Source: Tissierellales bacterium
Lineage (GTDB): Bacteria; Bacillota; Clostridia; Tissierellales; Tissierellaceae
Direction: 5' to 3'
DNA: 64,000 bases
NCBI GenBank assembly: GCA_014360205.1
Contig: JACIXZ010000001.1
Span: 90,137-154,136 of the forward strand
The position numbers were made by a program, and so were the translations under genes. This document shows positions 2,128 to 46,577 of this stretch, piece by piece (within the stretch, counting starts at the first letter, position 1; each line of letters starts with the position of its first letter). A model generated the notes under the pieces. That model was given only the letters and a program-made list of their open reading frames with translations, made no database searches and had not been told where the DNA came from.

Positions 2128-3393
2128 GTGTCAAAGGAAATTTTAAACCCATTAGAAAGTGCACAAAAACAGGTTAAGGATGCTTGTGATGCATTGGGGC
2201 TAGAGCCATCTGTCTATGAACTATTAAAGGAGCCAAAAAGATTCATAGAAATATCTATCCCTGTAAAAATGGACGATGGAAGCATTAAAGTGTTTAAAGG
2301 TTATCGTTCAATGCATTCGGATGCAATAGGACCTGGAAAAGGTGGAGTTAGATTTCATCCAAATGTAAATCCAGATGAAGTAAAAGCTCTTAGTGTTTGG
2401 ATGACATTTAAATGTTGTGTAACTGGCATACCATATGGTGGTGGAAAAGGCGGTATATGTGTAGATCCTTCTACTCTTTCAAAGGGTGAATTAGAAAGAC
2501 TTTCAAGAGGATATGTTCAGGGATTATATAAGTACTTAGGTGAAAAAATAGATATACCAGCACCAGATGTAAATACAAATGGTCAGATTATGTCGTGGAT
2601 GGTAGATGAATACGTAAAATTAACTGGAAATATGTCATTGGGTGTATTCACAGGTAAACCAGTAGAATGGGGTGGATCACTAGGTAGAAATGAAGCAACA
2701 GGTTTTGGAGTGGCTGTAGTAGCTAGAGAAGCTATTGCGAAATTAGGAATAGACATGGATAAATCAACAGTTGCAGTTCAAGGCTTTGGAAATGTAGGAA
2801 GCTATACAGTAAAAAATGTTCAAAAACTTGGGGCTAAAATAGTAGCAGTAGCTGAATGGGCAAAAGAAGTCGGAACTTATGCTATCTATAATGAAGAAGG
2901 ACTAGACTTTAATGATATGCAAGAATATGTTAAAGAACATAAGAACTTAGTAAATTATCCAAAAGCTAAGATGATATCATTAGATGAATTCTGGGGATTA
3001 AATGTAGATATTATGATTCCAGCTGCTCTGGAAAATGCAATTACTTTAGATATTGCTCCTAAGATCAAAGCAAAATTAGTATGTGAAGCTGCAAATGGAC
3101 CTATAACTCCAGAAGCAGATGAAATATTAAATAACAATGGTATAGTAGTAACCCCAGATATACTTTCTAACGCAGGAGGAGTAACTGTATCATATTTTGA
3201 ATGGGTTCAAAATCTTTATGGATATTACTGGAGCGAAAAAGAAGTAGAAGAAAAAGAAGAAATCGCAATGGTAAATGCTTTTAATGCAATTTGGAAAATC
3301 AAAGAAGAATATAATGTACCAATGAGAAAAGCTGCATATATGTATTCAGTTAAAAAAGTATCAGATGTAATGAAACTGAGAGGTTGGTATTGA
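2128..3393 (+). CDS. gdhA: NAD(P)-dependent glutamate dehydrogenase
   Basis: Catalyses reversible oxidative deamination of glutamate to 2-oxoglutarate and ammonia, a central step in amino-acid fermentation. The 421 residues match the hexameric short-type family. GPGKGGVRFHP and the catalytic-lysine segment PYGGGKGGI lie near residues 70-110, APDVNTNGQIMSWM near 150, and the Rossmann motif VQGFGNVGSYT near 218. The C-terminus ILSNAGGVTVSYFEWVQN is typical. GTG start at 2128, 13 bases after AAAGGAGG. Transcribed alone between two terminators. The choice of glutamate rather than Leu/Phe/Val as substrate follows the overall motifs and is likely but not proven. The free ammonia it produces is relevant to the altered purine enzymes downstream. 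Confidence 0.92.
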   Translation: MSKEILNPLESAQKQVKDACDALGLEPSVYELLKEPKRFIEISIPVKMDDGSIKVFKGYRSMHSDAIGPGKGGVRFHPNVNPDEVKALSVWMTFKCCVTGIPYGGGKGGICVDPSTLSKGELERLSRGYVQGLYKYLGEKIDIPAPDVNTNGQIMSWMVDEYVKLTGNMSLGVFTGKPVEWGGSLGRNEATGFGVAVVAREAIAKLGIDMDKSTVAVQGFGNVGSYTVKNVQKLGAKIVAVAEWAKEVGTYAIYNEEGLDFNDMQEYVKEHKNLVNYPKAKMISLDEFWGLNVDIMIPAALENAITLDIAPKIKAKLVCEAANGPITPEADEILNNNGIVVTPDILSNAGGVTVSYFEWVQNLYGYYWSEKEVEEKEEIAMVNAFNAIWKIKEEYNVPMRKAAYMYSVKKVSDVMKLRGWY

Positions 3394-25607: not shown

Positions 25608-26900
25608 TTATTTTAAAAGATTTGGCTTTAAGATGATATCGTTAGGGTTAATTCTTTCTATCCCTAATACATCAATCAACTTAAATCCATACCTTGTGCT
25701 GAATGCATCAAATGGAGAGTGATCATTCAGCTTTTTTCTTGTGTAAGAGTTCACATGAGACATTATTAAACGAGAATCATTTTGTGTTAGCTTGTCCATG
25801 CTCTTACCTTTAGGAATAATCCTGCGGATTAGCTCATGATTATTCTCAATCTCTGGTTTTAGAAATGCTGAATAAGGATAGCAATAAAACACATTAGTAA
25901 GTTTTTCATCATTGATTATTTCAATTTTATCTGGATCTGAAAACTCACTACCGTTATCTGTTAAAAGGACAGGAAATAAAGTTCTATACTCAGCTGAACC
26001 TATTGCATCATAAACCCATCTAAAACACTCAGTAACACTTCTAGAGTCATTAGCATCCCTAAGAAACATAAGCATAAATGAAGTATCAGCAAAGTGAATA
26101 GTAAGTAAAACTTTGCCACCCTTCCTACCTTCAACAGTATCCATTTGAACAATGCTAATATCCTTGTTTTCTTTAATAAATTCTAAATAGTCATCATATC
26201 TTCTATTTTTCAAACAACTTTTATCCACCTTATACCCCATCTGAAACTTCTTTCTAGGTCTATACTTAATTTTTCTAGGTAAATCAATATTCTTAGCAGA
26301 TATAATTTGCTTATCGATGTAGTTATACAGAGTTTTTTCACTAACCATGAAAGAATCTTTATTATTTGAATGGATATGATGAATTGATTGACCATTATTT
26401 ACTAAAGGCGTAACAATATCATTAATTCTCTGAAGCTCCTCCGGTGACATTTCAATCCCAGATCTTGACTCAACCAAGACACTCTCATAATCTTTTTGTG
26501 CATCCTTAGCTGAATAAAATTTCTTTGTAAGAGTACACTTTCTCCTATCATCGCAACCATTGCAAACATAGGGAGATTTAGATAACTTACTACAAATATC
26601 TTCACTGAAATAATCACAATTATCATTACAAATATCACAAAATCTACAAAATTTATTATGCTTATTGCTACAATAATCATTCCCACAAATCTTTTTTAAA
26701 TCACAATCATATCTGTATATACATGCATTGTAATTACGACCATAACAACCCTTTTTAGAAAAATTAGATCTGAGAATAATCTCTCTAGAAATAGTGGATT
26801 TATGTCTATTAAGCTCTCTTGCAATTTCGGATAAAGAATAATTGTTTTTAAGATACTTTTCAATATCTAATCTGTTATCAAAATTTAAATGTATAGCCAT
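25608..26900 (-). CDS. IS30-family transposase
   Basis: DDE transposase of 430 residues from ATG 26900, behind an AAGGATG site. An open frame continuing to 27044 adds 48 residues that do not look like the family. The N-terminal helix-turn-helix SLSEIARELNRHKSTISREI (about residues 21-40) is the IS30 hallmark. A Cys-rich section (about residues 50-130), with many CxxC-like pairs such as CDICNDNCDYF and CNGCDDRRKC, looks like a zinc-binding insertion. The catalytic core has VQMDTVEGRKGG (first Asp), LLTDNGSEF (second Asp) and IENNHELIRRIIPKG (Glu). The frame is intact, so the copy may be active. Confidence 0.9.
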   Translation of the reverse strand: MAIHLNFDNRLDIEKYLKNNYSLSEIARELNRHKSTISREIILRSNFSKKGCYGRNYNACIYRYDCDLKKICGNDYCSNKHNKFCRFCDICNDNCDYFSEDICSKLSKSPYVCNGCDDRRKCTLTKKFYSAKDAQKDYESVLVESRSGIEMSPEELQRINDIVTPLVNNGQSIHHIHSNNKDSFMVSEKTLYNYIDKQIISAKNIDLPRKIKYRPRKKFQMGYKVDKSCLKNRRYDDYLEFIKENKDISIVQMDTVEGRKGGKVLLTIHFADTSFMLMFLRDANDSRSVTECFRWVYDAIGSAEYRTLFPVLLTDNGSEFSDPDKIEIINDEKLTNVFYCYPYSAFLKPEIENNHELIRRIIPKGKSMDKLTQNDSRLIMSHVNSYTRKKLNDHSPFDAFSTRYGFKLIDVLGIERINPNDIILKPNLLK

Positions 26901-27245
26901 AATAGCTACATCCTTCTTAAAGCTTATCATCCAGGCATAAGACAATGATACTACAAACTCCGCCGATATTGACATAAGAACCTGAAAATGAGCATAAAAA
27001 AATACCCGAAGGCAAGCAAAACAAAGGCATTTACTTACTTGCATCGGATAGAAAATTTTATCATTTTCAAGAACCTTATATCAATATTTCCCTGCGGCGG
27101 CTCTTCTTGAGAAGATAGTACCCTCTGGCTTCACAAAACAAATTATGTCTATCAAAAATTTGTAAGGTTAAATTAGACCCCTAAATTTGTAAGACTAAAT
27201 TAGACTGTTTTTGAAAAGGGGGTCTAATTTACTTTTACAATTAAC

Positions 27246-27310: not shown

Positions 27311-27328
27311 CAAATTGAAATAAATATA

Positions 27329-27397
27329 GCTCATATAAATCCCATAATAAGGTTGGGATGTTTCTACAAAATGACCGATAATCATTTGTCTATGAGC
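27329..27397 (+). promoter_or_regulatory. Guanine riboswitch aptamer
   Basis: Purine-class aptamer. P1 is GCTCATA (27329-27335) with TATGAGC (27391-27397). P2 is ATCCC/GGGAT, followed by the conserved J2/3 GTTTCTAC (27360-27367). P3 is AAATGA/TCATTT, capped by the L3 sequence CCGATAA. The discriminator base before P1' is C (27390, in TCTATGAG), so guanine rather than adenine is predicted. It is directly followed by the PRPP aptamer. Confidence 0.92.
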
Positions 27398-27513
27398 GAA
27401 AGTGTACCTAGGGTTCTTGAAAAAGACCGAGCGGTACAAATGTCCAAAGACATTACACCGGAGGGATAAAAGCCCAGGCGGGTAGGTTTCGCATATGACC
27501 TACCCACCTGGGC
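27396..27513 (+). promoter_or_regulatory. PRPP riboswitch (ykkC subtype 2b) with expression-platform hairpin
   Basis: Contains the ykkC-class signature GAAAGTGTACCTAGGGTTC and GACCGAGCGGTACA, then an ATGTC/GACAT hairpin, TTACACCGG and AGGG. The hairpin at 27472-27513 (GCCCAGG-GGGTAGGT with its complement) resembles the intrinsic terminator, although the tail is only moderately T-rich. PRPP rather than guanidine or ppGpp is assigned because it leads purC. It abuts the guanine aptamer with no linker, the layout of published guanine-PRPP tandem logic gates. Confidence 0.88.
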
Positions 27514-27548: not shown

Positions 27549-28253
27549 ATGTCGAATTTAAAAACTGACAATCTCTTGTACTCCGGTAAGACGAAAGATG
27601 TTTACAAATTAGAAGACGGAAATTATCTACTGAGGTTCAAAGATGATGTAACAGGTGAAGGGGGAGTATTCGATCCTGGGGCAAATAAAGTAGGCCTTAC
27701 TATTGAAGGCGCAGGTAGATCTGGACTAAGATTAAGCACTTACTTTTTTGAACTTTTCAATAAAAAAGGAATACCCACACATTTTGTTTCTTCAGACATC
27801 GACAATAACACTATGACAGTTTTACCTGCTAAACTATTTGGAAAAGGCGTAGAAGTTATAGTCAGATACCGAGCAGTAGGTAGCTTTTATAGGAGATATG
27901 CATTATATGTTGAAGAAGGAAGAAAAATAGGGCCGTATGTCGAATTCACTTTAAAAGATGATTTGAGAGAAGACCCACTTATAACAGAAGATGCACTTGA
28001 AATATTAAATATTATGAGAAAAGAAGAATCAAATAAAATAAAGAATATGGCTGTTGAAATAGCAGAGATAGTAAAGGATGAATTGGAGAAAAAAGGCATA
28101 GAGTTATATGACATAAAATTTGAATTTGGCAGAATAACAGAAGATAATCATATAGGATTGATTGATGAAGTGTCAGGTGGGAATATGAGAGCCTATAAAG
28201 ATGATGTATATATCGAACCATTGACACTTGAAAAAATAATGTTAAATAATTAA
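27549..28253 (+). CDS. purC: SAICAR synthetase
   Basis: Joins aspartate to CAIR with ATP to give SAICAR, step 8 of purine synthesis. 234 residues. The N-terminal YSGKTKDVYKLEDG glycine loop, LRFKDDVTG, the RYRAVGSFYRRY segment (about residues 106-117) and DEVSGGNMRAYKDD near the end are diagnostic. Start ATG 27549 follows AGGGGGA; a longer in-frame start at 27495 lies in the riboswitch hairpin and is rejected. First gene of the purine operon, controlled by the guanine-PRPP tandem. A second PRPP riboswitch separates it from purL. Confidence 0.97.
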   Translation: MSNLKTDNLLYSGKTKDVYKLEDGNYLLRFKDDVTGEGGVFDPGANKVGLTIEGAGRSGLRLSTYFFELFNKKGIPTHFVSSDIDNNTMTVLPAKLFGKGVEVIVRYRAVGSFYRRYALYVEEGRKIGPYVEFTLKDDLREDPLITEDALEILNIMRKEESNKIKNMAVEIAEIVKDELEKKGIELYDIKFEFGRITEDNHIGLIDEVSGGNMRAYKDDVYIEPLTLEKIMLNN

Positions 28254-28282
28254 TTAAACGCAATTAGATTAAATTTTATAGA

Positions 28283-28400
28283 CCGAAAGTGTACCTAGGG
28301 TTCTTAATAAAGACCGAGCGGTACAGATGTCTTATGGCATTACACCGAAGGGAGAAAAGCCCAGGCGGGTAGGTTTCGCATATGACCTACCCACCTGGGC
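28283..28400 (+). promoter_or_regulatory. Second PRPP riboswitch, between purC and purL
   Basis: Repeats the ykkC 2b signature GAAAGTGTACCTAGGGTTC, GACCGAGCGGTACA and TTACACCG. It ends in a hairpin (28359-28400) identical over 42 nt to that at 27472-27513. No purine aptamer precedes it. It would re-gate transcription within the operon, by PRPP alone. Confidence 0.87.
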
Positions 28401-28423
28401 TTAAAAATTTAGGAGGTTGAAAA

Positions 28424-31400
28424 ATGAAAAATTTTAGAATCATGATTGAAAAAAGGGAAGATTTTAATGTAGAGGCTAAAAAACTAAAAAAAGATGCTGA
28501 ATTTCTAGGTATAGAAAAATATGAAGATATAACTGTATTTAATGTTTATGATTTATTTAACGTTGATGAAGAAAAACTAAATGAAATAGTTGAAAAGATT
28601 CTGTTTGAACCAAACATTGACAATATATACTCCGGTGAATTAAATCTAAACAATGGGGAATTGGCTTTTAGATTTGAATACAACAAAGGGCAATTTGACC
28701 CAAGACAAAATGCAACAGAAATACTAATAAATAAATATTTAGGATATAAAGACTCATCTGTAAAAGCTTCAAAGATTATTTTAGCAAAAGGCATGTCAAA
28801 TGAAGACTTCTCTAAATTAAAATCTTACTATATAAATCCAGTAAACTCTAAAGAAGTGCCTCTAAATTTAATAAGTGAAGATAAAGAAGAAATACAACCC
28901 AAAGAGATTGAAATCATAGATGATTTTATTAACTATTCAAAAGATGAATTAATAAGATTTAAAAGTAAATACGATCTTGCACTTGATTTAGAGGATCTCT
29001 TATTTATACAAGATTATTTTAAAAAATCCATGAAAAAACCCACAATTACAGAAATTAAAGTTCTCGATACCTATTGGTCAGATCACTGCAGACATAAGAC
29101 TTTTATGTCGGAGATAACTGAGATAAAGCTTGAAGATGGAGATTATAGGGACTTATTTGAAGATGTGATCAAAGAATATCTTTCATCAAGGGAATTTGTT
29201 CATAATAACAACAAGCCAATATGCTTGATGGATTTAGCAACCATAAACATGAAAGAAATAGAAAAAAATGGGAAATTAACGGACAGAGAAATCTCTGAAG
29301 AAGTAAATGCTGCAAGCATAGAAATTGAAGTTGATGTAGATGGGGAAAAAGAAAAATGGCTTCTGATGTTCAAAAATGAAACACATAATCACCCTACTGA
29401 AATAGAACCATTTGGTGGGGCTGCTACTTGTCTAGGCGGGGGTATTAGAGATCCACTTTCTGGAAGAGGCTATGTTTATCAAGCAATGAGAATTACAGGG
29501 GCAAAAGATCCAAGGACAAAATTTGAAGATACATTGCAAGGGAAACTTCCTCAAAGAAAAATCACTACAATGGCAGCTGAAGGATACAGTTCATATGCGT
29601 ATCAAATCGGTGGAGCCTCTGGATATATAAAAGAATTTTATGATGATGGTTTTGAAGCTAAGAGATTAGAATTAGGTGCTTTAGTAGCTGCAGCGCCAAA
29701 GGATTGGGTAAGAAGAGGCATTCCTAAACCTAATGATCTTGTATTGCTTGTCGGGGGAAAAACTGGAAGAGATGGATTAGGAGCAGCTGTTGGTTCTTCA
29801 GTAGAGCAAAAGAAAGATGCCTTAACTACAGCAGGAGCACAAGTACAAAAGGGAGATCCTCAAATAGAGAGAAAGATTGTGAGACTGTTTAGGAATGAAA
29901 AAGCTTCAAAGATTATAAAACGATGCAATGACTTCGGTGCTGGTGGAGTAGCTGTAGCTGTTGGAGAGTTGGCAGATGGGTTGCTAATTGATCTGGATAA
30001 AGTACCAACTAAATATGAAGGTATGGACGGAACAGAGATAGCTCTATCAGAGTCGCAAGAAAGAATGGCTATAGTTATAGATGAAAATGATTTAGAGGAA
30101 TTTATTAAATTAGCACAAGAAGAAGATTTAGAAGTGGCAGTCATAGCGAAGGTAACCGAAGAAAAGCGAATGAGGATTGTTTGGAAGAACAAAGTAATCG
30201 TAGATTTAGATAGAGAATTTCTTAACACAAGTGGAATTAGGAAAAAAGCTAAAATTCATATTATATCGCCTTCAAAAGAAACTTCAGTTTTCAAAGATAA
30301 AACAAAATCAAATAGTTCAAATGCAGATAGATTTGTCGAAAATTTAAAGGATTTAAATTGCTGTTCGCAAAAAGGATTAATTGAAAGATTTGATAATACA
30401 ATTGGGAAAAATGCTGTAGTTGTTCAACTCGGAGGGAGAGAAAAACTAACACCTCAAGTTGGAATGGCCGCAAAATTGCCTGTTATGGGAAAACACACAA
30501 ATACTGCTTCTATAATGACTTGTGGCTATGATCCGGAAATAGCTAAGTGGAGTACATTCCACGGTGGTTACTATGCTGTAATTGACTCTATAGCAAGAGT
30601 AGTAGCAATGGGAGGGGATTACAAAAGAATTAGATTATCTTTCCAAGAATTCTATGAAAGTTTAGGAGAAGATCCTAAGAAATGGGCTAAACCATTTACA
30701 TCACTTTTGGGAGCATATAAAGTGCAAAAAGAATTGGAAATACCAAGTATTGGCGGGAAAGATAGCATGAGTGGAAGCTTTGAAAATATAAATGTGCCAC
30801 CATCGCTGTTTAGCTTTGCGGTATGTGTTGAAAATAGTGAAAATATAGTTTCTCAAGAATTCAAATCAGCAGATTCTATAGTAATTGAAGTCATGCTAAA
30901 AAGAGATGACAATGATTTAGTAGATTTGGAAAATTTAAAACACAATTACAATTTAATTAAAAAAATAGTTGATGAGAGAAAAGTTCTTTCTTCAAATGTA
31001 ATTGGACACGGAGGAGTTGCAAAAGCAATATTTGAAATGTGCATAGGAAATTGTCTAGGTTTTAAATTTGACAATGACTTTGAAGATATGTATACACCAT
31101 CATTTGGAAATATTTTATTAGAAATTTCAAAAGATAATTTAGGAGATATCTCAAAATTAAATTATAGAGTTGTAGGAACTACACAAAAAGAAAAATGCAT
31201 AAAAATCGGAGAAGAAACACTTGCATTGGATGAATTAAAAAAAGTTTATTTAGGCGTTTTAGAAGATATATTTCCTATAAAAGAAGACATCAAAAAAGAA
31301 GTATCAAATATTGAGTACAAAGGGTCACACTCCATGAAGAGCACTAAGACAATTGCAAAGCCTAGGGTTTTGATACCAATTTTTACAGGCACAAATGGCG

Positions 31401-32146
31401 AATACGACATGATGAGTTCATTTGAAGAATGCGGAGCAGTTGTAAATACATTCGTACTAAAAACATTTAGCACAAATGAAATAAAAAAATCAATTAGGTT
31501 ACTATCTAATTTAGTCAAAGAAACACAAATTCTCGGATTAGCAAATGGATATTTCTTAGGGAATGAGCCTGAAACTGCAGCTAAATTATTGAAGGTCATA
31601 TTCGATGATGAGTATTTAAAAGAATCAGTATATGAATTGCTGTATAAAAATGATGGTCTTATTTTAGGGATAGGTTCAGGCTTTAATGCACTTATTAAAC
31701 TTGGACTTATTGAACATGGCAAGTTTGTTAAACAGAATGAACAATCACCATCGATTGTATACAATTATTCAGGTGATTTCTATTCAAATTTTGCTGATGT
31801 TAAAGTAACTTCAAAGTTGTCGCCTTGGTTTAATGACATGGAGATAGGTTTTGAATACACAGTGCCTATAGCGACAAAAGAAGGAAGAGTGTTCTTGAAA
31901 GACAAAAAAGAATTGATTGAAAAAGGGCAAATATCAACTCAATTTGTAAAGAATGGGGATGCAACATATGATGGCTTATACAATCCAACTGGATCTGAAT
32001 TTGCGATTGAGTCTATGACTAGTCCTGATGGAAGAATATTAGGAACAGTATCTGCAATCGATAGAATTGCTGATGGAATTTACAAAAATATAGAAATTAA
32101 AGGCAAACACAAGATATTTGAATCTGGAGTAAATTACTATAAATAA
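28424..32146 (+). CDS. purL: FGAM synthase (large PurL) with degenerate glutaminase domain
   Basis: Converts FGAR to FGAM with ATP and an amino donor, step 4 of purine synthesis. 1240 residues, full length for the single-chain type: PurS-like N-terminus, linker, duplicated synthase halves, then a C-terminal class I glutaminase. The synthase motifs are sound: YWSDHCRHKTF near residue 215 and ETHNHPTEIEPFGGAATCLGG near 320. The glutaminase is not. The nucleophile elbow reads LGIGSGFNAL where the family has LGICNGFQAL, putting Gly1084 in place of the catalytic Cys. IPVSHGEGRF has become VPIATKEGRV, so Thr1151 replaces His; Glu1153 is kept. The fold is retained but glutamine hydrolysis should be impossible, implying use of free ammonia or a separate donor. 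ATG start after AGGAGG. Confidence 0.93.
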   Translation: MKNFRIMIEKREDFNVEAKKLKKDAEFLGIEKYEDITVFNVYDLFNVDEEKLNEIVEKILFEPNIDNIYSGELNLNNGELAFRFEYNKGQFDPRQNATEILINKYLGYKDSSVKASKIILAKGMSNEDFSKLKSYYINPVNSKEVPLNLISEDKEEIQPKEIEIIDDFINYSKDELIRFKSKYDLALDLEDLLFIQDYFKKSMKKPTITEIKVLDTYWSDHCRHKTFMSEITEIKLEDGDYRDLFEDVIKEYLSSREFVHNNNKPICLMDLATINMKEIEKNGKLTDREISEEVNAASIEIEVDVDGEKEKWLLMFKNETHNHPTEIEPFGGAATCLGGGIRDPLSGRGYVYQAMRITGAKDPRTKFEDTLQGKLPQRKITTMAAEGYSSYAYQIGGASGYIKEFYDDGFEAKRLELGALVAAAPKDWVRRGIPKPNDLVLLVGGKTGRDGLGAAVGSSVEQKKDALTTAGAQVQKGDPQIERKIVRLFRNEKASKIIKRCNDFGAGGVAVAVGELADGLLIDLDKVPTKYEGMDGTEIALSESQERMAIVIDENDLEEFIKLAQEEDLEVAVIAKVTEEKRMRIVWKNKVIVDLDREFLNTSGIRKKAKIHIISPSKETSVFKDKTKSNSSNADRFVENLKDLNCCSQKGLIERFDNTIGKNAVVVQLGGREKLTPQVGMAAKLPVMGKHTNTASIMTCGYDPEIAKWSTFHGGYYAVIDSIARVVAMGGDYKRIRLSFQEFYESLGEDPKKWAKPFTSLLGAYKVQKELEIPSIGGKDSMSGSFENINVPPSLFSFAVCVENSENIVSQEFKSADSIVIEVMLKRDDNDLVDLENLKHNYNLIKKIVDERKVLSSNVIGHGGVAKAIFEMCIGNCLGFKFDNDFEDMYTPSFGNILLEISKDNLGDISKLNYRVVGTTQKEKCIKIGEETLALDELKKVYLGVLEDIFPIKEDIKKEVSNIEYKGSHSMKSTKTIAKPRVLIPIFTGTNGEYDMMSSFEECGAVVNTFVLKTFSTNEIKKSIRLLSNLVKETQILGLANGYFLGNEPETAAKLLKVIFDDEYLKESVYELLYKNDGLILGIGSGFNALIKLGLIEHGKFVKQNEQSPSIVYNYSGDFYSNFADVKVTSKLSPWFNDMEIGFEYTVPIATKEGRVFLKDKKELIEKGQISTQFVKNGDATYDGLYNPTGSEFAIESMTSPDGRILGTVSAIDRIADGIYKNIEIKGKHKIFESGVNYYK

Positions 32147-32159
32147 TGGAGGGATAACT

Positions 32160-32642
32160 ATGAAAGTTGCAATAGTTATGGGAAGTAAATCAGATATAAA
32201 AATAGCTATGGAAGCAAAGGAAGTATTAGATAGCTTTGGAATCGAAAACGAAATGAGAGTCATATCAGCACACAGAACTCCTAGGATAGCAATTGAATTT
32301 GCTGAAAGACTAGAGGAAAATGGATTCGATTTGGTAATAGCAATAGCAGGGAAAGCCGCTCATTTAGCAGGTGTATTAGCTAGCCTAACAATATTACCTG
32401 TAATAGGTGTACCAGCAAAATCATCAACTTTAGATGGAATAGATTCACTTCTTTCAACAGTACAGATGCCTAAAGGAATACCAGTTGCAACAGTTGCGAT
32501 AGATGGTGGTTATAATGCAGGGATATTATCGGCAGAAATTTTATCAATCAGGGATAATGATTTAAGAAATAAATTAAAATCTCACAAAGAAAAACTAAAA
32601 TTAGAAACGATTAAAAACGATGAAGAAATAAGTAAATTATGA
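32160..32642 (+). CDS. purE: 5-(carboxyamino)imidazole ribonucleotide mutase / AIR carboxylase-type PurE
   Basis: Forms CAIR, the substrate of PurC. 160 residues with the PurE signature: IVMGSKSDIKIAME at the start, ISAHRTPRIA near residue 37, AGKAAHLAGVLAS near 66 (GKAAH where many class I enzymes have GGAAH), then DSLLSTVQMPKGIPVATVA. No purK follows, so N5-CAIR would have to come from elsewhere, or the enzyme works with AIR and CO2 in a CO2-rich cell. ATG start after GGAGGG, 13 bp behind purL. The 3' end lies against the purF ribosome site. Confidence 0.93.
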   Translation: MKVAIVMGSKSDIKIAMEAKEVLDSFGIENEMRVISAHRTPRIAIEFAERLEENGFDLVIAIAGKAAHLAGVLASLTILPVIGVPAKSSTLDGIDSLLSTVQMPKGIPVATVAIDGGYNAGILSAEILSIRDNDLRNKLKSHKEKLKLETIKNDEEISKL

Positions 32643-32656
32643 TAGGAGGACCTGAT

Positions 32657-34009
32657 TTGAGCGGAATAATAGGAGTTTTCAGCAAAAACAATAAAGAAGT
32701 TTCAAAATATATTTATTACGGCCTTTATGCACTACAGCATAGAGGCCAAGCAAGTGCGGGCATTTCAATAAATAACAATGGATTCATAGATTATGAAAAG
32801 AATTTAGGCTTAGTTGGTGATGTTTTCACAAAAGAAGTCATGGAACGACTAAAAGGCGATATTGCAATAGGCCAAGTAAGATATGCTTCTTATTCTGAAA
32901 AGAATACAAAATCCAATTCAGAACCACTAGTAGTAGGATATAGAAAAGGTGCTTTGTCAATTTGTATGGATGGAGCGATTGAAAATTACGAAACATTAAG
33001 AGAAAAATTTGAAGAAAGTGGACATATATTTCAAACTGATTTATCTGTAGAAGTTATTGCATCTTTGATTGCAAAATATCATAAAGATAGTTTAACATAT
33101 GCTATAAAAATGGCACTAGACGAAGTCAATGGCTCTTATTCACTTATTATAATGACTAAAGATTCGCTGATTGCTGCAAGAGATCCACATGGAATTAGAC
33201 CACTTTCAATTGGAAAAGTTGGAGATGACTTCATTATCTCATCAGAAACATGTGCTATTGAATGTATTGGAGGAGAATTTATAAGGGATTGCGATCCCGG
33301 TGAAATAGTGATTATTGATGATAATGGAATTAGAAGCGAGAAGCTTCAAAGTAAAAAAAGAGCATTATGCATATTTGAATTAGTGTATTTAGCAAGGCCT
33401 GATAGCTATATAGACAACAGATATGTATATACATCAAGATTTAATACTGGTGAAATTCTTTACACAGAATACCCCACAAAAGCTGATGTAGTAATTGGAG
33501 CTCCCGATTCAGGAACAGTTGCTGCAATTGGTTATGCCAAGAAATCTCAAATACCATACACTGAGGGTATAATAAAAAATAGATATATCGGAAGAACTTT
33601 TATTGAACCAACTCAAGACATAAGAGAAGAAGGGGTGAGAATAAAATTAAACCCCTTAACTTCGAATATAAAAGGAAAAGATTTGATATTAGTAGATGAT
33701 TCAATTGTCAGAGGAACGACTATCAAAAGAACTGTAGAAATGTTAAGAAAAGCAGGAGCTAAAAGTGTACATGTAAGAATTGCTTCACCTCCTGTAAAAC
33801 ACAGTTGTTTTTTAGGGGTGGACACACCAAATGAAGAGAATTTAATAGCAAATTACATGACAGTAGAAGAAATCAGAAAAGCTATAAACGCTGACTCTCT
33901 ATATTTTATATCGCTTGAAGGCTTAGTAAAAGCAGCTGGTGGAGAAAATGGGTTTTGCAAAGGCTGTTTTACTGGGGATTATCCAGTAAAAAGATCAAAG
34001 TCCAGCTAA
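32657..34009 (+). CDS. purF: Amidophosphoribosyltransferase with Ser replacing the catalytic Cys
   Basis: First committed purine step: PRPP to phosphoribosylamine. 450 residues from TTG 32657, seven bases after AGGAGG. The N-terminus is M-S-G-I-I-G-V-F; in the family it is (propeptide)-C-G-V-F-G, where Cys1 is the glutaminase nucleophile. Here codon 2 is AGC, Ser. The pocket is altered too: HNG has become MDG (Asp105), and the SDTE motif has become LSVE. Arg of GQVRYAS is kept. The PRPP loop LVDDSIVRGTT and the Cys residues of the B. subtilis-type Fe-S cluster (ALCIFE, HSCFLG, FCKGCF) are intact. Probably an ammonia-dependent enzyme. The IS110 element follows 100 bp later. Confidence 0.93.
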   Translation: MSGIIGVFSKNNKEVSKYIYYGLYALQHRGQASAGISINNNGFIDYEKNLGLVGDVFTKEVMERLKGDIAIGQVRYASYSEKNTKSNSEPLVVGYRKGALSICMDGAIENYETLREKFEESGHIFQTDLSVEVIASLIAKYHKDSLTYAIKMALDEVNGSYSLIIMTKDSLIAARDPHGIRPLSIGKVGDDFIISSETCAIECIGGEFIRDCDPGEIVIIDDNGIRSEKLQSKKRALCIFELVYLARPDSYIDNRYVYTSRFNTGEILYTEYPTKADVVIGAPDSGTVAAIGYAKKSQIPYTEGIIKNRYIGRTFIEPTQDIREEGVRIKLNPLTSNIKGKDLILVDDSIVRGTTIKRTVEMLRKAGAKSVHVRIASPPVKHSCFLGVDTPNEENLIANYMTVEEIRKAINADSLYFISLEGLVKAAGGENGFCKGCFTGDYPVKRSKSS

Positions 34010-34125
34010 GAAATGTCAATAGTTAAAATAAAAATATTTTAAATTTGTGCTGGGCTAAAAAAGGGTAACATTAATAAGCCCTTTGAGAATATCTCAAAAA
34101 GAAAGAAACAAGTTATGGATTTACT

Positions 34126-35433
34126 TTATGCAGCTTTATCGCATTTAGCTTTTAAGTAATTCGTTTGATGTTCTTTTGGTGTGATGATTGAAAATTCTTT
34201 CTCATCACGAAGCATTGCAAATACAATGTTACAGACTTTATGCATAACGGCACCTAGAGCAACCATTTTGGGTTTTGACTGGCATTTCTTTAAATAGTAA
34301 TCACGTAATACAGGATTTTTTGCTGAACCATCTTTGTTCTTGCTGATGCTAATTAGAGCCATTGTATGTAGGACTCTTCTTGCAATCCTGGAGCCGCGTT
34401 TTGACATAGAGATTTTGGTGCCTTCATATTTACCAGATTGTTTTACTGCAGGATCTAATCCAAAGTAAGCAAAAAGTTGTTTAGGTGAGTGAAATGCTGA
34501 GAAATCTCCGATTTCACCCATTAGGCTTACAGCAGATAAAAATCCAGCTCCTTTGTAAGATTCAATCAGATGAATTTGCTTTACAAAATCAGTAGTTTCA
34601 TTAGCATCAACCAATTCATGCATATCAGAAAGAATGGCTGATATTTCATCATCATAATTTCTAATGAGGCGAATATACAAGCGAATTCGTTTGAAGTTAC
34701 TGCTTACGGAATAACCAAAGATACTTGCATCATTTGCTGCTTGTATTATGGCATTATACTTAGTCTCAGCATATGTAAGTCCAAATCTTGCAGTAGACCT
34801 TATGGAATCGATAATCTCATCCTTTGAAGCATTTAGAAATGCTTCTGGTGAAGTATATTTTTCCAATAAGGTCAGAGATGTATTTGTAGTTATTTTAGAA
34901 AAGATTTTTAAATACTGCGGAAATACCATTCGCAGTTCGCCCTGTAGTTTATTCACATAAGCAGAGCGGTTGTCCATTAGATCATAATACTCTCTAGAAA
35001 GATTTCTTAAATTGAGAGCTAGGTCGGATGGCATAAGGGATAACTTTAAATCTGGTTTTAGACCAACTAAGGCAGTCTTTTTTGAATCAAAACGATCATT
35101 ATGTACTTTCCTAATGTTAATATTTGTGCTATTCTTAGTGATGATAGGATTGATAACAGAGCAGTTAAAACCCTTATCACGAAGATAGCAGAAGAGTGGG
35201 TAATGATAAATTCCCGTAGATTCCAGAAAGATGCGACTTTCTAAGGAATACAGCTCCTCTGCTTCTTTTATTTTAGATACAGCTAAGCTTAGGGAATTTA
35301 AATCAGAATGTAGGATTTTAAACGGCTTTCCTACAAAGGTTTGGTTAGGTAGTGCAATAGACATCCAACTGAAGTCTGCACCAACATCAATACCAACCGA
35401 AATAAATAAATTTTCAAATAAAATGTTTGACAT
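34126..35433 (-). CDS. IS110-family DEDD transposase
   Basis: 435 residues from ATG 35433, which follows AAAGGAGC; the longer open frame to 35535 lacks a site. The N-terminal RuvC-like DEDD domain has VGIDVGADFSW (Asp), FLESTGIYH (Glu) and VHNDRFDSKKTALVGL (two Asp). The C-terminal Tnp_IS116 domain has YKGAGFLSAVSLMGEIGDF, then KYEGTKISMSKRGSRIARRVL carrying the conserved Ser nucleophile region. All catalytic features look intact. The family uses a bridge RNA to choose target and donor. The element interrupts the purine operon in antisense orientation, and its transcript could interfere with purM-D. Confidence 0.93.
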   Translation of the reverse strand: MSNILFENLFISVGIDVGADFSWMSIALPNQTFVGKPFKILHSDLNSLSLAVSKIKEAEELYSLESRIFLESTGIYHYPLFCYLRDKGFNCSVINPIITKNSTNINIRKVHNDRFDSKKTALVGLKPDLKLSLMPSDLALNLRNLSREYYDLMDNRSAYVNKLQGELRMVFPQYLKIFSKITTNTSLTLLEKYTSPEAFLNASKDEIIDSIRSTARFGLTYAETKYNAIIQAANDASIFGYSVSSNFKRIRLYIRLIRNYDDEISAILSDMHELVDANETTDFVKQIHLIESYKGAGFLSAVSLMGEIGDFSAFHSPKQLFAYFGLDPAVKQSGKYEGTKISMSKRGSRIARRVLHTMALISISKNKDGSAKNPVLRDYYLKKCQSKPKMVALGAVMHKVCNIVFAMLRDEKEFSIITPKEHQTNYLKAKCDKAA

Positions 35434-35640
35434 GAGCAATAGCTCCTTTCTGATAGGAATCCATTTCCATCTAATGAGTACACAACCTTGCGAGTTATAC
35501 GGGTATAGCCTGTGGCTCCCAACCAGCTGAATCATAAAACCTCATTGAATGGACTAATTGACTTTTTTATAGGTATGGGTCAGTAGAAACTGACTTCCCA
35601 AGGAGGATTACATTGTTTGTCCTATCCTTAATAATTATAC
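35434..35640 (-). ncRNA. Candidate bridge RNA region of the IS110 element
   Basis: By analogy with IS110-group elements, the non-coding DNA upstream of the transposase should encode a structured guide RNA. On the minus strand it has a stable GTCAGT-TTCT-ACTGAC hairpin and several short GC-containing stems in an otherwise AT-rich setting. No loop could be matched to target or donor sequence by eye, so this is a position-based suggestion only. Confidence 0.35.
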
Positions 35641-35807
35641 CTTATGAAACAACTGGAGTCTATCTGGAAGCCGTCAGGCATGATAATTAAGTTAAATAAT
35701 ATCTGATAAAGGGAGAATACCTTCTTCTATTATCGGATATGAAAAATTATAAATAATAGGTGAGTAGCCTTAGTGGCTATATCATCATTATACAAGGAGG
35801 AATAAAA

Positions 35808-36839
35808 ATGCCTATTGACTACAAAGCATCAGGAGTAGATGTAGATGCTGCGAACAAAGAAGTAGATCTGTTAAAAGATATAGTTAAAAAGACCTATATA
35901 AAAGGTGTGCTCTCAGAATTAGGAGGGTTCTCAGGACTATTTGAAATAGATACTAATGAGTATAAAAATCCAGTCTTAGTATCTGGAACAGATGGAGTAG
36001 GTACAAAATTGAAATTAGCTTTTATGATGGATAAACACGACACAGTAGGCATAGACTGTGTGGCAATGTGCGTAAACGATGTTTTATGTCAAGGTGCAAA
36101 GCCACTATTTTTTCTTGACTATATTGCTACTGGGAAATTGATCCCTGAGAAGATGGCGCAGATTGTTTCAGGAGTAGCAAAGGGTTGTTTAGATAGTGGA
36201 TGTGCATTAATAGGCGGAGAAACTGCAGAAATGCCAGGATTTTATAAAGATGGCGAATATGACATCGCTGGATTTTGTGTCGGAGTAGTAGATAAACAAA
36301 AAATAGTTACAGGCGAAAATATTAAACCAAACGATTTGATTTTGGGACTTCCTTCATCAGGAGTTCATAGCAATGGATTTTCTCTTGTTAGAAAATTATT
36401 TTTTGAAGACAACAATTTCAAAATTGATTGTTATATAGAAGAATTTGGGAAGACATTAGGCGAAGAGTTATTGACTCCAACTCGAATTTATGTAAAAGAG
36501 ATATTAGATTTGATGAAGAGTTATGAAATTAAAGCAATGAGCCATATTACAGGTGGGGGTTTCTATGAAAACATTCCAAGGATGTTAAAAGAAGGGTTAA
36601 AAGCCAAGATAGATATGAGTGAATTTAATACACCTTCAGTATTTAGATACATACAAAAACTTGGTGAAATTGACATGAGAGAAATGTATAGGACTTTTAA
36701 TATGGGAATTGGCTTGGTGATGGTGGTTGATAAAGAAGTTGCATCTAAGATAATATCGCTTTATGAATCAAGGGGCGAAAAAATTTATGCAATAGGTGAA
36801 ATAATAGAAGGAGAGAGAGGCATAGATCTATGTCTTTAA
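35808..36839 (+). CDS. purM: AIR synthetase (phosphoribosylformylglycinamidine cyclo-ligase)
   Basis: Closes the imidazole ring: FGAM plus ATP gives AIR. 343 residues. The N-terminus is [13 protein letters not shown], followed by [16 protein letters not shown], the ligand loop [23 protein letters not shown] near residue 82, [11 protein letters not shown], and [19 protein letters not shown] 35808 follows CAAGGAGG; a longer in-frame start at 35760 is rejected. First gene after the IS110 insertion. It overlaps purN by 10 nt, and all later genes are closely packed, so the promoter for this half must come from upstream readthrough or near the element end. Confidence 0.96.
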
Positions 36840-37486
36840 AAAAAATAGCTGTATTGATATCGGGTGGAGGCACAAATTTGCAAGCCATAATTGATGCTAT
36901 TTTAGAAAAAAAGATAAATGCAGATATTAAAATTGTCATATCCAATAGAGAAGATGCTTATGGACTTGTAAGAGCTCAAAAACATGGAATTAAAAATATG
37001 TTTATAAGTTCAAAAAATCTAACTGATGAAGAATACAGCAAAAAATTATTAGAGATATTTAAACAAGAAGAGATAGATTTTGTAGTATTAGCAGGTTTTT
37101 TAAAAATACTCTCTAAAGATTTAGTGATGCAATATAAGAATAAGATCATAAACATTCATCCATCACTTATCCCTAGTTTTTGTGGTAGAGGATATTATGG
37201 TATTAAAGTTCATGAAAAGGCGATTGAATATGGTGTTAAAGTATCAGGAGCTACTGTCCATTTTGTTGATGAAACTGCGGATACAGGGCCAATTATTGAG
37301 CAAAAAGCAGTAGATGTTGACGATTTTGACTCACCTAACTTTTTGCAACAAAAGGTATTGGAGATAGAACACGAGATATTGGTATCGTCACTTGAAAAGC
37401 TCTGCAATGACGAACTTGTAGTGATTGGTAGAAGAGTTATTAAAAGAGGAGGCAAAGATGAAAAGAGCATTGATAAGCGTTTATAA
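36830..37486 (+). CDS. purN: GAR transformylase
   Basis: Transfers formyl from 10-formyl-THF to GAR, step 3 of the pathway. 218 residues. [14 protein letters not shown] near residue 10, LAGFLKIL near 89, the catalytic triad region with [11 protein letters not shown] (Asn and His), and [16 protein letters not shown] (Asp) are typical. ATG start overlapping purM by 10 nt, behind GGAGAGAG. Its end overlaps purH by 29 nt. Depends on formyl-THF made by the Fhs encoded 2.9 kb downstream. Confidence 0.95.
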
Positions 37487-38990
37487 CAAGCATGGGATTG
37501 TTGAATTTTCAGAAAAGCTAATCGGATTAGGATGGGAAATAATATCCACAGGAGGAACATATAAAGAACTTAAACAAGCAGGTATACCTGTCACTGAAAT
37601 AAATGAGATAACGAAATTTCCAGAGATTTTAGATGGAAGAGTAAAAACTTTAAACCCTATCCTACATGGAGGCATATTATTCAGGAGAGATAATGAAAAG
37701 GACTTAGAAACATTAAATGAACATGGATTGTGCCAAATAGATATGGTAGTTAATAATTTTTATCCATTTGAAGAAACCATAAAAAAAGATGGGATAACTG
37801 AAGAAGAAGTCATCGAAAACATAGACATAGGCGGACCTTCAATGCTTAGGGCTGCAAGTAAGAACTTTAAATTTGTAACAGTAATTTTTGACAACGAAGA
37901 CTATGATACAGTTATTGATGAGATAGTAAGATTTGGGGATACGACTTTAGAAACCAGAAAAAAACTAGCTGGGAAAGCATATTCATACACAGCATATTAT
38001 GACAGTTTAGTTTCGGATTATTTTAACAGTGCAAATTCTATACTATTTCCTAAACACCTCACAATAGGCTATAAGAAAAATATAGATCTAAGATATGGTG
38101 AAAATCCACATCAGAAAGCAGCATTATATGAGAAAAATATGCGAAATAAACCGAATATAGTAAATGCTAACAAGCTTCATGGAAAAGAGTTATCATATAA
38201 TAACATTTTTGATGCGAATGCTTTATTAGAATTATTAACTGAATTTGACGAACCTACAGCTGTTGCAATTAAACATGGCAATCCTTGCGGAATAAGCTCG
38301 TCAAAAGACATCTATACTGCTTATTTAAATGCGTATAATGCTGATACTGAATCCATATTTGGTGGCATAGTAGGATTAAATAGGGAGGTGGATGAAAAAT
38401 TAGCTATCAAATTATCTGAGATATTTTTAGAAATAATACTTGCACCTTCATTTACTTCAAAAGCACTTGATATATTACAAAAAAAGAAAAACATTAGATT
38501 GATAGAAATTGATAGATTAAATGATTTCAAAAAAGATAATATGACTTTTAAAGCAATAAACGGAGGGCTTTTATATCAAGAAAAAGATAATTTACTATTT
38601 AATGGCGAGTTAGAGGTAGTGAGCAAGAGAAAGCCAACACCAACAGAACTTGAAGATATGAATTTTGCATGGATAATTTCTAAATATATAAATTCAAATG
38701 GCGTTGTTTTAGCAAGAGATAAGACATCTCTTGGAATAGGACTTGGAGATGTAAACAGGTATTTTGCAGTTGAGTCTGCGTTGAAAAAAGCAAAAGGCAA
38801 TACTGAAAACTCTGTTTTAGCATCAGATGGATTCTTTCCTTTTGATGACTCAATAAAATTATTAGTAAAACATGGCATAACAGCAATAATAGAACCAGGT
38901 GGCTCTATTAGAGATAAAGAGATAATAGAACAAGCTGATAAAAATAATATTGCTTTGGTATTTACAGGTATTAGGCATTTTAAACATTAG
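37458..38990 (+). CDS. purH: Bifunctional AICAR transformylase / IMP cyclohydrolase
   Basis: Last two steps to IMP. 510 residues. An N-terminal MGS-like cyclohydrolase opens with [16 protein letters not shown] and LISTGGTY-like sequence, with FPEILDGRVKTLNP near residue 63. The C-terminal transformylase has AIKHGNPCG with the catalytic Lys-His pair near residue 275, the ASDGFFPFDD segment and IEPGGSIRDKE, ending in FTGIRHFKH. The GAGQ-R motif reads GLGDVNR, a mild deviation. ATG 37458 follows AGAGGAGG; the frame to 37425 is an extension within purN. Overlaps purN by 29 nt. Confidence 0.96.
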   Translation: MKRALISVYNKHGIVEFSEKLIGLGWEIISTGGTYKELKQAGIPVTEINEITKFPEILDGRVKTLNPILHGGILFRRDNEKDLETLNEHGLCQIDMVVNNFYPFEETIKKDGITEEEVIENIDIGGPSMLRAASKNFKFVTVIFDNEDYDTVIDEIVRFGDTTLETRKKLAGKAYSYTAYYDSLVSDYFNSANSILFPKHLTIGYKKNIDLRYGENPHQKAALYEKNMRNKPNIVNANKLHGKELSYNNIFDANALLELLTEFDEPTAVAIKHGNPCGISSSKDIYTAYLNAYNADTESIFGGIVGLNREVDEKLAIKLSEIFLEIILAPSFTSKALDILQKKKNIRLIEIDRLNDFKKDNMTFKAINGGLLYQEKDNLLFNGELEVVSKRKPTPTELEDMNFAWIISKYINSNGVVLARDKTSLGIGLGDVNRYFAVESALKKAKGNTENSVLASDGFFPFDDSIKLLVKHGITAIIEPGGSIRDKEIIEQADKNNIALVFTGIRHFKH

Positions 38991-39000
38991 GAGGTGTGAG

Positions 39001-40260
39001 GTGAAAGTTTTAGTTGTGGGAAGTGGTGGAAGGGAACATGCTATAATAAAAAAGCTATCAGAGTCAGAGATGGTTGACAAAATTTATTGCGCCCCAGGTA
39101 ACGGAGGTACTTTAGAACTTGCCGAAAATGTAGACATAGACTCTTTAGATATAGATAGATTAAAAGAATTTTCTATTGATAACAATATAGATTTAACAAT
39201 TGTTGGACCTGAAGATCCACTAGCTAAAGGAATTGTAGACGAGTTTAAGAAAGAAAAATTAGTGATATTTGGACCTGATTTTAAATGTGCACAACTTGAA
39301 GCAAGTAAAAATTACTGTAAGAAATTTCTAATTGACAATGATATTCCTACTGCTAGATATAAGACATACTTCAATTATGAAGAGGCAGTGGCTGGATTGA
39401 AGGACTTTTTATTTCCACTTGTAATAAAAGCAGATGGACTATGCTTGGGGAAAGGTGTAACAATTTGCAATGACAAAGAGGAGGCAGTTGAAACTTTAAA
39501 AAGCATATTCATTGACAAAATATTCGGCTCACAAGGTGAAAAAGTGATAATAGAAGAGTACTTAGATGGGATCGAAGCATCACTAATGTGCTTTGTATCT
39601 CACAATAAAATATATCCAATGGAAAGCGCAAAAGATTACAAAAAAATCTATGACAATGATTTTGGACCAAATACAGGAGGAGTTGGAGCATATTCTCCAA
39701 GCCCATTGTTTACAGATGAATTTAAGAAGAAAATCTATGATAATATAATTAAAAAAATCGAAAAAGGTTTTGAAGAGTATGACTTTGATTATACTGGGAT
39801 ACTGTTTATTGGTTTGATGATTTGCAACTCTATTCCATATGTACTTGAATTTAATGTTAGATTTGGAGATCCTGAGACAGAGGTGGTATTGCCTAGATTA
39901 AAATCAGATTTATTTAAAATAATGATCGATGCAATAGATGGAAAATTAGAAGCTAAATCGCTTGTTTGGAATGAAAGACCTTCTGTTGCTGTTGTTCTAA
40001 CATCTGGAGGTTATCCAAAAGAATACGAAAAAGGATATGAAATAACTGGATTAGAAAAAATAGATAAAGATGTATATGTATTTCACAATGGTACTAAGAG
40101 AGTAAATGGGAAACTTCTAACAAACGGCGGGAGAGTATTAACTGTTGGTTGTGTTGATGATATGAATAAAGCAATCGAGAAAGTTTATGAAGAGATTAAA
40201 AAAATCAATTTTAATAAAATGCAATATCGAAAAGACATAGGAAGAACTTTCTTTTTGTAA
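39001..40260 (+). CDS. purD: GAR synthetase
   Basis: Ligates glycine to phosphoribosylamine, step 2. 419 residues with the ATP-grasp fold. VLVVGSGGREHAIIKKL at the start, VGPEDPLAKGIVDEF near residue 75, VIKADGLCLGKGVTI near 142, and the metal-binding segment VLEFNVRFGDPETEVVLPRL near 285 are all present. GTG 39001 follows AGGAGGTG, and upstream in-frame residues are part of purH. Ten bp behind purH. Receives phosphoribosylamine from the altered PurF, an unstable intermediate usually passed on quickly. Confidence 0.96.
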   Translation: MKVLVVGSGGREHAIIKKLSESEMVDKIYCAPGNGGTLELAENVDIDSLDIDRLKEFSIDNNIDLTIVGPEDPLAKGIVDEFKKEKLVIFGPDFKCAQLEASKNYCKKFLIDNDIPTARYKTYFNYEEAVAGLKDFLFPLVIKADGLCLGKGVTICNDKEEAVETLKSIFIDKIFGSQGEKVIIEEYLDGIEASLMCFVSHNKIYPMESAKDYKKIYDNDFGPNTGGVGAYSPSPLFTDEFKKKIYDNIIKKIEKGFEEYDFDYTGILFIGLMICNSIPYVLEFNVRFGDPETEVVLPRLKSDLFKIMIDAIDGKLEAKSLVWNERPSVAVVLTSGGYPKEYEKGYEITGLEKIDKDVYVFHNGTKRVNGKLLTNGGRVLTVGCVDDMNKAIEKVYEEIKKINFNKMQYRKDIGRTFFL

Positions 40261-40343
40261 ATAATCTATATTACTATATATTTTTTAATTATGATATACT
40301 AATCTTAAGTTATAAATATAGCTGATTTTAAGGAGGAGATAGC

Positions 40344-42014
40344 TTGAAAACAGATGTCCAAATAGCTCAAGAGGCTAAAATGCTACCAATTAAAGATATA
40401 GCTAAAGGATTGGGTATATCAGAAGATGAAATAATCAATTATGGGAAGTACAAAGCTAAGATTTCACTTGATGTTTACAAGAAATTGAAAGATAAGAAGG
40501 ATGGGAAACTTATATTAGTAACAGCTATAAATCCAACTCCAGCAGGGGAAGGTAAAACTACAACCAACATTGGTTTGTCAATGGCTTTAAACAAAATCGG
40601 GAAAACCTCTATTTCGACTTTAAGAGAACCATCTCTTGGGCCTAGTTTTGGAGTAAAAGGTGGAGCAGCTGGTGGAGGATATTCACAAGTAGTTCCAATG
40701 GAAGATATAAATCTACATTTTACAGGAGATTTTCATGCTATAACATCTGCTCACAATTTGATTTCAGCACTACTTGACAACCACATACAACAGGGCAATG
40801 AATTAGGGATAGACCCAAGAAGAGTTGTGTGGAAAAGGGTCATGGATATGAATGATAGAGCTCTAAGACATATTGTAATAGGGCTTGGAGGAAAGCCAAA
40901 TGGGATGCCTAGAGAAGATGGGTTTGACATAACAGTTGCATCTGAGATTATGGCTATTTTCTGCCTTTCTGAGAGCCTAGAAGACTTAAAAGAAAGAGTA
41001 TCAAACATGATTGTTGCATATAAATTTGACGGTTCGCCAGTGTTTGTCAAAGATTTAAAAGCACAAGGATCAGTAGCACTTTTGATGAAAGATGCAGTAG
41101 CACCTAACTTAGTACAGACACTAGAAAACACTCCTGCTATAATTCATGGTGGGCCTTTCGCAAATATAGCACATGGAAGCAATTCAATATTAGCAACCAA
41201 ATTGGCTTTAAAACTTTGTGAATACACAGTTACAGAAGCAGGTTTTGGTGCAGATTTAGGAGCTGAAAAGTTCTTTGACATCACATCAAGATATGGTGGG
41301 TTCAAACCAGATGCAGCAGTTATAGTAGCTACAGTAAGAGCTTTGAAACATCACGGAGGAGCTAAAAAAGATGAATATGGCTTAGAAAACTTTGATTATT
41401 TAAGCAAAGGCTTTGAAAACCTTGAAAAACATATAGAGAATTTGAAAAAGTTTGGAGTGCCTGCTATTGTTGCATTAAACAAATTCCCAACAGATACAAA
41501 AGCAGAACTTGATTTTGTAATAAATAGATGTAATGAATTGGGAGCAGAAGCAGTATTATCAGAAGTATGGGGCAAAGGTGGAGAAGGCGGAATAGACTTA
41601 GCAAAGAAAGTTGTTGAAGTTGTTGAGAAGAATGAAGCTAATTTCAAATTTTTATATGATGTAGAAGAAAGTATAAAACAAAAAATCGAAAAGATAGCTG
41701 TTGAAGTCTATGGTGCAGATGGTGTTGAATTTAGCTCCCAAGCTTTAAAACAAATTAAAGACATAGAAAAGCTTGGATTGGATAAGATGCCAATTTGTAT
41801 GGCCAAAACCCAATATTCTCTATCTGACGATCCTAATCTACTAGGTAGACCAAAGAATTTTAAAATTACAGTAAAAGAGATAAAGATATCTAATGGAGCT
41901 AAATTTTTAGTTGCTTTGACTGGAGATATAATGACTATGCCAGGTTTGCCAAAAGTACCAGCGGCAAATAGCATTGACATATTGGAAAATGGAGAAATAG
42001 TAGGATTATTTTAA
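40344..42014 (+). CDS. fhs: Formate-tetrahydrofolate ligase
   Basis: Makes 10-formyl-THF from formate, THF and ATP. It supplies PurN and PurH and can also serve one-carbon fermentation. 556 residues, standard. The P-loop [20 protein letters not shown] lies near residues 63-82. [24 protein letters not shown] follows, then [12 protein letters not shown] and [18 protein letters not shown] start at 40344 after AAGGAGGAG. A probable separate promoter with TATACT at 40295-40300 lies in the 83-bp gap after purD. It ends with its own terminator. Its place directly behind the purine genes fits a shared role. Confidence 0.97.
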
Positions 42015-44620: not shown

Positions 44621-44651
44621 GAAGAAGTATTTTATTATAGGAGTTGATATA

Positions 44652-46553: not shown

Positions 46554-46577
46554 TTTTTAGCTTTGGAGGCAAGTCTT

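Follow-up and report, generated by a model that had tools for sequence, protein, structure and literature searches.

Loss of Glutaminase Residues in PurF and PurL of the Purine Operon

The window analyzed in this study, a 64,000-nucleotide stretch of a Tissierellales bacterium genome (contig JACIXZ010000001.1, positions 90,137 to 154,136), carries a purine operon whose PurF and PurL are, judging from their sequences, very likely ammonia-dependent enzymes that evolved stepwise in the order Tissierellales. An earlier note on this DNA had claimed that both enzymes had lost their glutaminase residues with other residues conserved, and this was borne out by the residues themselves and by intact synthase and transferase motifs. 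The reading frame of PurF opens at ATG 32639; 7 nt separate a GGAGG stretch (32645–32649) from TTG 32657, and AGC is the next codon. The start codon is most likely TTG 32657 and not ATG 32639, giving the N-terminus Met-Ser-Gly, and therefore Ser stands at the Cys1 position (AGC, 32660–32662). The Asn-Gly of the oxyanion hole was replaced by Asp-Gly (GAT, 32969–32971), and the phosphoribosyl pyrophosphate (PRPP) loop VDDSIVRGT was unchanged. The AlphaFold model of PurF (predicted local distance difference test score, 81) was best matched by Bacillus subtilis PurF (1ao0) with a template modeling score of 0.89. Of the features of the TIGR01134 family, the profile score, PRPP loop, and fold were present, and the N-terminal Cys and oxyanion Asn-Gly were missing.

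In PurL, the nucleophile Cys was replaced by Gly (GICNGFQ to GIGSGFN; GGT, 31673–31675) and the triad His by Thr (SHGEG to ATKEG; ACA, 31874–31876). The triad Glu was retained, so that the triad now reads Gly-Thr-Glu, and the synthase motifs FKNETHNHP and GGKDSMSG were kept. As a single-chain PurL, the protein matched TIGR01857 over its full length and far above the cut-off, but the Cys and His of the Cys-His-Glu glutaminase triad of that family were lost. By their residues, the glutaminases of both enzymes appear dead, and we infer from this a loss of glutamine activity.

The source genome is a draft of 1.98 Mb in 78 contigs with a completeness rating of 100%. Among 22 named loci, the nearest relatives of the window PurF were that of a Tissierellaceae metagenome-assembled genome (89% identity) and that of Soehngenia longivitae (85%), the closest with a species name; Soehngenia is a genus within Tissierellaceae. 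The source genome yielded no further purF or purL, and the idea that an intact second set exists there, which would have undermined the earlier note, was rejected. The genome contained two N-terminal nucleophile (Ntn) amidotransferase domains, those of PurF and GlmS, and a single PurL/PurQ-type domain, that of PurL, with no other PurQ-like domain found.

Both dead glutaminase domains are kept under purifying selection. In pairs of close genomes, five for each enzyme, the ratio of nonsynonymous to synonymous substitution rates (dN/dS) was 0.05–0.16 for the dead PurF domain and 0.04–0.20 for the dead PurL domain, compared to 0.02–0.09 and 0.04–0.14, respectively, in three intact pairs, although synonymous sites were far diverged in some pairs. 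The pair G039/G065, with altered PurF and intact PurL, gave 0.06 and 0.11. These values bear on the explanation that the purine operon is decaying in an organism that salvages purines. An IS110 element between purF and purM would fit such decay, as would one relative with no purF or purL match (G009) and another whose purL match is broken by stops (G060). However, the nine operon genes all have open frames, the riboswitch aptamer has a good score, and both domains of PurF and of PurL show low dN/dS when congeners are compared. Pseudogene decay was rejected on the low dN/dS, and we regard a decaying operon as extremely improbable.

Distribution in Tissierellales

To describe the distribution of the altered enzymes, 120 genomes, out of 150 from the order, were read residue by residue (genomes, loci, and genome groups carry G, L, and f numbers, respectively; f1 includes Soehngenia and T. 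creatinophila, and f4 includes Ezakiella and is presumably Peptoniphilaceae). Among the 30 remaining genomes, no PurF match reached 1e-60 in 12, and the matches of 18 began at position 1, some of them fragmentary, with residues that lie outside the survey; a match that begins at position 2 of the profile serves only as a proxy for a lost Cys1. PurF was altered, with no intact copy, in 67 of the 120 genomes: 51 Ser/Asp, 13 Cys/Asp, one Cys/Ser, one Gly/Asn, and G007, whose N-terminus is missing and which was counted by its Asp. An intact copy was present in the remaining 53, among which G019 and G024 carry an altered one too. Chance was excluded because the same replacements recur across the order.

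Both genes could be read in 115 genomes. Both were altered in 44, PurF only in 21, PurL only in one (G058, Cys to Ser), and neither in 49; G013 was counted as PurL-intact owing to an extra intact PurL. Thus, 44 of the 45 PurL-altered genomes were also PurF-altered, and the co-occurrence in relatives that the earlier note had anticipated was found. Its idea of a joint loss held as co-occurrence but probably not as simultaneity, given 21 PurF-only genomes against one PurL-only genome.

Across 68 distinct altered PurF rows, position 1 was Ser in 53, Cys in 14, and Gly in one, and the oxyanion Asn position was Asp in 66, Asn in one, and Ser in one. Intact PurF and PurL rows were defined by Cys and Asn, so that conservation of these residues is no test. 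His stood beside the oxyanion Asn in all 59 distinct intact PurF rows versus only 26 of the 68 altered rows, and the PurL triad His was found in 70 of 70 rows classed intact. In PurF, the replacement Asp is conserved while the neighboring residue drifts. The codon before Ser in the 53 Ser-type PurFs read in the order was TTG in 32, ATG in 19, and GTG in two, and a Shine-Dalgarno-like stretch (loose pattern) preceded 50 of these starts. In the 53 intact PurF genomes, Cys1 was preceded by Glu inside a leader in 44 and by Met in nine.

A phylum-wide sample of 149 genomes was also searched, in which the Cys1 position only, and not Asn, was considered. Among the matches listed, one PurF besides that of the window started at profile position 2 and read Ser (G276); five listed matches starting at position 9 or beyond were left unread. 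The PurF change seems common in this order and rare outside it. The protein of G276 (L194), which lies outside the order, has 829 aa with a C-terminal PurF in which Cys1 is Ser, possibly an independent loss. Separately, PurD (GARS domains) was fused ahead of PurL in a single 1,649-aa chain in G047 (L126:3105-8051), and PurL frames of 1,632–1,654 aa were seen in many other f4 genomes.

Probable Order of Events and Possible Transfer and Regain

In a 71-row PurL tree, the Gly-type rows formed one clade (support 1.0) with f13 rows as its sister; these sister rows combine an altered PurF with an intact PurL. The PurF tree from that survey placed f13 within the altered clade, and therefore altered PurF is probably the older state. 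PurF was probably altered before PurL rather than at the same time, because PurF-only loss is common and PurL-only loss rare. Further PurL losses were seen in G081 (f13, Cys to Gly, His kept) and G149 (f4, Cys to Gly), both with altered PurF, and PurL was intact in 16 of the 17 f4 genomes with altered PurF. Within PurF, either Asn to Asp or Cys to Ser may have come first. In one f4 genus, three Cys/Asp genomes (G132, G136, and G146) are neighbors of the Ser/Asp genome G047, as expected if Asn to Asp preceded Cys to Ser; in f6, however, Cys/Asp genomes are nested among Ser/Asp ones, which could reflect either repeated Cys to Ser changes or a return to Cys.

Most PurL-altered rows stem from one loss, and the correlation rests on few independent events. 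Because the rows share ancestry, Fisher p-values were not relied on. In a 113-row tree, G028 and G081 grouped with f13, and four Ezakiella-type and three other f4 PurFs fell on long branches within the altered clade, the latter three with a warning from the program. The change counts on this tree, 4 for PurF and 8 for PurL, are unsure owing to these odd placements.

In one genus, the altered pair was present in G057 and G068 and not in G044 and G076, and the PurL tree placed it beside T. creatinophila (G012) and G018 (0.999); this looks like a transfer of the operon. In the Gudongella-like genomes G019 (L114) and G024 (L120), the operon lacks purL, purC and purE remain, and intact purL and an extra intact purF lie elsewhere. 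Gudongella-like G013 (L108) kept the altered operon and has an extra intact purL. These genomes look like cases of a return to glutamine use via gene gain.

GuaA and Glutamine Synthetase

GuaA, the third purine amidotransferase, was read in 15 genomes (G114 in part), which were not a random sample: G003, G032, G048, G061, and G072 were chosen for GuaA scores below the family cut-off, and 41 of 80 genomes searched scored above it. Its glutaminase was altered in seven of the 15, all PurF/PurL-altered. The Cys was replaced by Gly in G003, G032, G048, and G072, and the nucleophile elbow was decayed in G061. In G015 (L259) and G021 (L252), the glutaminase core was deleted, with nearly the whole domain gone and 414 aa left. 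A GuaA so deleted does not show in the profile search at E 1e-20; near purine operons, only G021 and G015 yielded a guaA. All 15 retained the SGGVDSS motif of the other half. In a tree of 13 of them, the five substitution types formed one clade (100/99), to which two f13 rows were sister (87/84). G021 stood elsewhere, and the tree thus separates two origins of glutaminase loss. GuaA was intact in eight of the 15, including the window genome, G013, G024, and G057. Besides its intact GuaA, G013 (L243) carries another GuaA-like frame, of which 247 aa lie before the locus end truncates it.

A glutamine synthetase homologue was absent from 48 of 67 PurF-altered genomes versus two of 53 PurF-intact ones, and a canonical glutamine synthetase was present in 5 of 67 versus 32 of 53. 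Within f4, no homologue was found in 9 of 17 PurF-altered versus 2 of 10 intact genomes. No AmtB match was found in PurF-altered genomes among 80 searched, but only nine of the 80 have any match, and hence this result is uninformative.

Proposed Mechanism and Alternative Explanations

In the proposed mechanism, the glutaminase domains of PurF and PurL would be catalytically dead and retained as protein parts, and free NH3, most likely from peptide and amino acid fermentation, would feed the phosphoribosyltransferase half of PurF and the formylglycinamide ribonucleotide-amidating half of PurL. The alteration of PurF (Asn to Asp and Cys1 to Ser) would have come first, followed by the loss of Cys and His from PurL and, in some descendants, by that of the GuaA glutaminase, through substitution or deletion. 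Use of NH3 by PurF and PurL is what we infer by analogy with the Cys1 to Ser mutant of Escherichia coli PurF and with human CPS1. Ammonia abundance may have been the cause of the losses. S. longivitae has been described as fermenting peptone, tryptone, and yeast extract (PMC7763609), but high ammonia is an assumption, because the word "ammonium" is absent from the main text of that paper.

Several observations weigh against this interpretation. The source-genome GuaA (GICYG), PyrG (GICLG), and GlmS (MCG) keep their catalytic Cys, and therefore glutamine must still be available and used. A general loss of glutamine use was rejected on this ground, and the trend that the earlier note had wanted checked in other amidotransferases held for GuaA of some relatives and not for these three. 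S. longivitae was reported without growth on casein hydrolysate (PMC7763609). Cys1 was kept alongside Asn to Asp in 13 genomes and alongside Asn to Ser in G053, and the loss of glutamine activity is less certain in these. The dN/dS of the altered PurF glutaminase was somewhat above that of intact pairs, perhaps through slightly relaxed selection. The independent-pair test of PurF and PurL had no power, with four pairs of which PurL differed in none or one. For the association with glutamine synthetase, tree-aware pairs gave two for and one or two against, too few for power, and a canonical glutamine synthetase is present in five of the PurL-altered genomes. Finally, the glutamine-anchoring Arg was kept in 60 of 68 altered PurF rows and the anchoring Asp in 61 of the 66 with a letter there, though not in Soehngenia; the altered pocket may still bind a ligand.

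The retained Arg and Asp, together with the fact that all 53 Ser-type PurFs read begin directly at Ser, would be expected if the glutaminases were still active through altered chemistry, with PurF using its N-terminal Ser as nucleophile in the manner of other Ntn hydrolases and PurL relying on some other arrangement. The replacement of Asn by Asp, however, places a charge where the oxyanion must be held. PurL with Gly and Thr has no nucleophile or base in place, the GuaA of two relatives is without any glutaminase core, and the Cys1 to Ser form of E. coli PurF is reported to lack activity with glutamine (PMC3261824). We consider active glutaminases of this kind highly unlikely.

The Cys kept in GuaA, PyrG, and GlmS, and the glutamine this implies, would also suit a separate glutaminase that feeds ammonia in trans to PurF and PurL, leaving the pathway glutamine-run. 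Against this, PurL has the only PurQ-like domain, and the class-I amidotransferases over the cut-off in the source genome were GuaA and PyrG only, with one weak 176-aa match below it (GlsA-type glutaminases not searched). The operon is also without an added glutaminase-type gene, and we give a glutaminase acting in trans very little probability. As an extension of the stepwise ammonia-dependent reading, losses may have followed a preferred order of PurF, PurL, and GuaA, and the dead PurF pocket may have been reused: Asp at the Asn site, beside the former His position, which can now vary, and near the N-terminal Ser, would capture ammonium and feed the old ammonia channel. This extension is speculative, and we hold it to be unlikely.

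Comparison with Known Systems

The same residue change as in the window PurF is known from laboratory mutants of E. coli PurF. Cys1 to Ser or Ala removed glutamine activity and left ammonia activity, and the Ser form had no detectable glutamine activity with ammonia still usable (PMC3261824, citing Mei and Zalkin 1989). Unlike these mutants, the change described here is natural, fixed across genera, and joined by Asn to Asp and by loss in PurL. A natural Cys to Ser replacement occurs in human CPS1, an ammonia-using enzyme that takes free ammonia and keeps its inherited glutaminase domain dead (PMC4655335). Likewise, by sequence, the window PurF and PurL each have a dead glutaminase domain beside a conserved synthase half. 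CPS1, however, is one animal urea-cycle enzyme, whereas two to three bacterial purine enzymes of unrelated glutaminase folds are concerned here. Ser also replaces the active-site Cys in Mlab_0150, a Ser-type PurF paralogue of Methanocorpusculum labreanum; a Cys-type PurF is encoded in that genome too, and the authors question whether its Ser-type paralogue is a PurF (PMC3261824). In the window genome, by contrast, no PurF other than the Ser form was found. The earlier note knew of no description of the paired loss, and none of a natural loss in PurF and PurL together was found in titles and abstracts of the open-access literature, subscription papers and preprints being outside the search.

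In textbook purine synthesis, ring nitrogens 3 and 9 come from glutamine. If the proposed mechanism is true, this lineage runs the N3 and N9 steps, and in some members GMP synthesis, on free ammonia. It would then amount to a natural experiment on the reasons for which cells retain glutaminase domains and ammonia channels, reveal the order in which glutamine dependence can be lost, and provide enzymology with PurF, PurL, and GuaA that are naturally specific for ammonia. Bacteria with an early purine pathway resistant to glutamine analogues would also be predicted.

Operon Layout and Genomic Context

The operon (27549–42014) has the order purC-purL-purE-purF-[IS110]-purM-purN-purH-purD-fhs with a purine riboswitch at its head (Table 1). 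A C before UAUG in the riboswitch suggests the guanine type. In two congeners, purM directly follows purF without a transposase between them.

Table 1. Positions of the purine operon and other features in the window, with supporting profile scores
Feature	Position	Strand	Evidence
Purine riboswitch aptamer	27311..27412	+	Rfam RF00167, 77.6 bits (gathering 37)
purC	27549..28253	+	TIGR00081, 119.9 bits (below cut-off 189.9)
purL (C-terminal glutaminase domain altered)	28424..32146	+	TIGR01857, 1475.9 bits (cut-off 1057); residues
purE	32160..32642	+	TIGR01162, 192.9 bits (cut-off 149.6)
purF	32657..34009	+	TIGR01134, 461.6 bits (cut-off 350; scored from ATG 32639); residues, start codon
IS110-family transposase gene, between purF and purM	34126..35535	-	NF033542, 182.8 bits (cut-off 140)
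purM (open reading frame; likely start ATG near 35808)	35760..36839	+	TIGR00878, 477.4 bits
purN	36830..37486	+	TIGR00639, 207.3 bits
purH (open reading frame)	37425..38990	+	NF002049, 692.7 bits
purD (open reading frame)	38950..40260	+	TIGR00877, 481.5 bits
fhs, formate-tetrahydrofolate ligase	40344..42014	+	NF010030, 938.5 bits
Divergent glutamine-synthetase-like protein, 644 aa	44619..46553	+	PF00120, 143.7 bits; GlnA equivalog, 150 (cut-off 429)
Glutamate dehydrogenase	2128..3393	+	NF040817, 504 bits (below cut-off 750)

The Glu/Asp importer that the earlier note had placed in the window resembles GltP (303 bits), but its score lies below the cut-off of that model (638). GatA of the window, for which the earlier note had claimed active amidase residues, is an amidase by profile. 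The 644-aa protein is the sole Gln-synt_C match in the source genome; within 44619–49852 it is followed by a 712-aa protein without a Pfam match and then by a protein with a C-terminal receiver domain. A transposase-like open reading frame with an HTH_38 domain (25608–27044) lies just upstream of the purine riboswitch.

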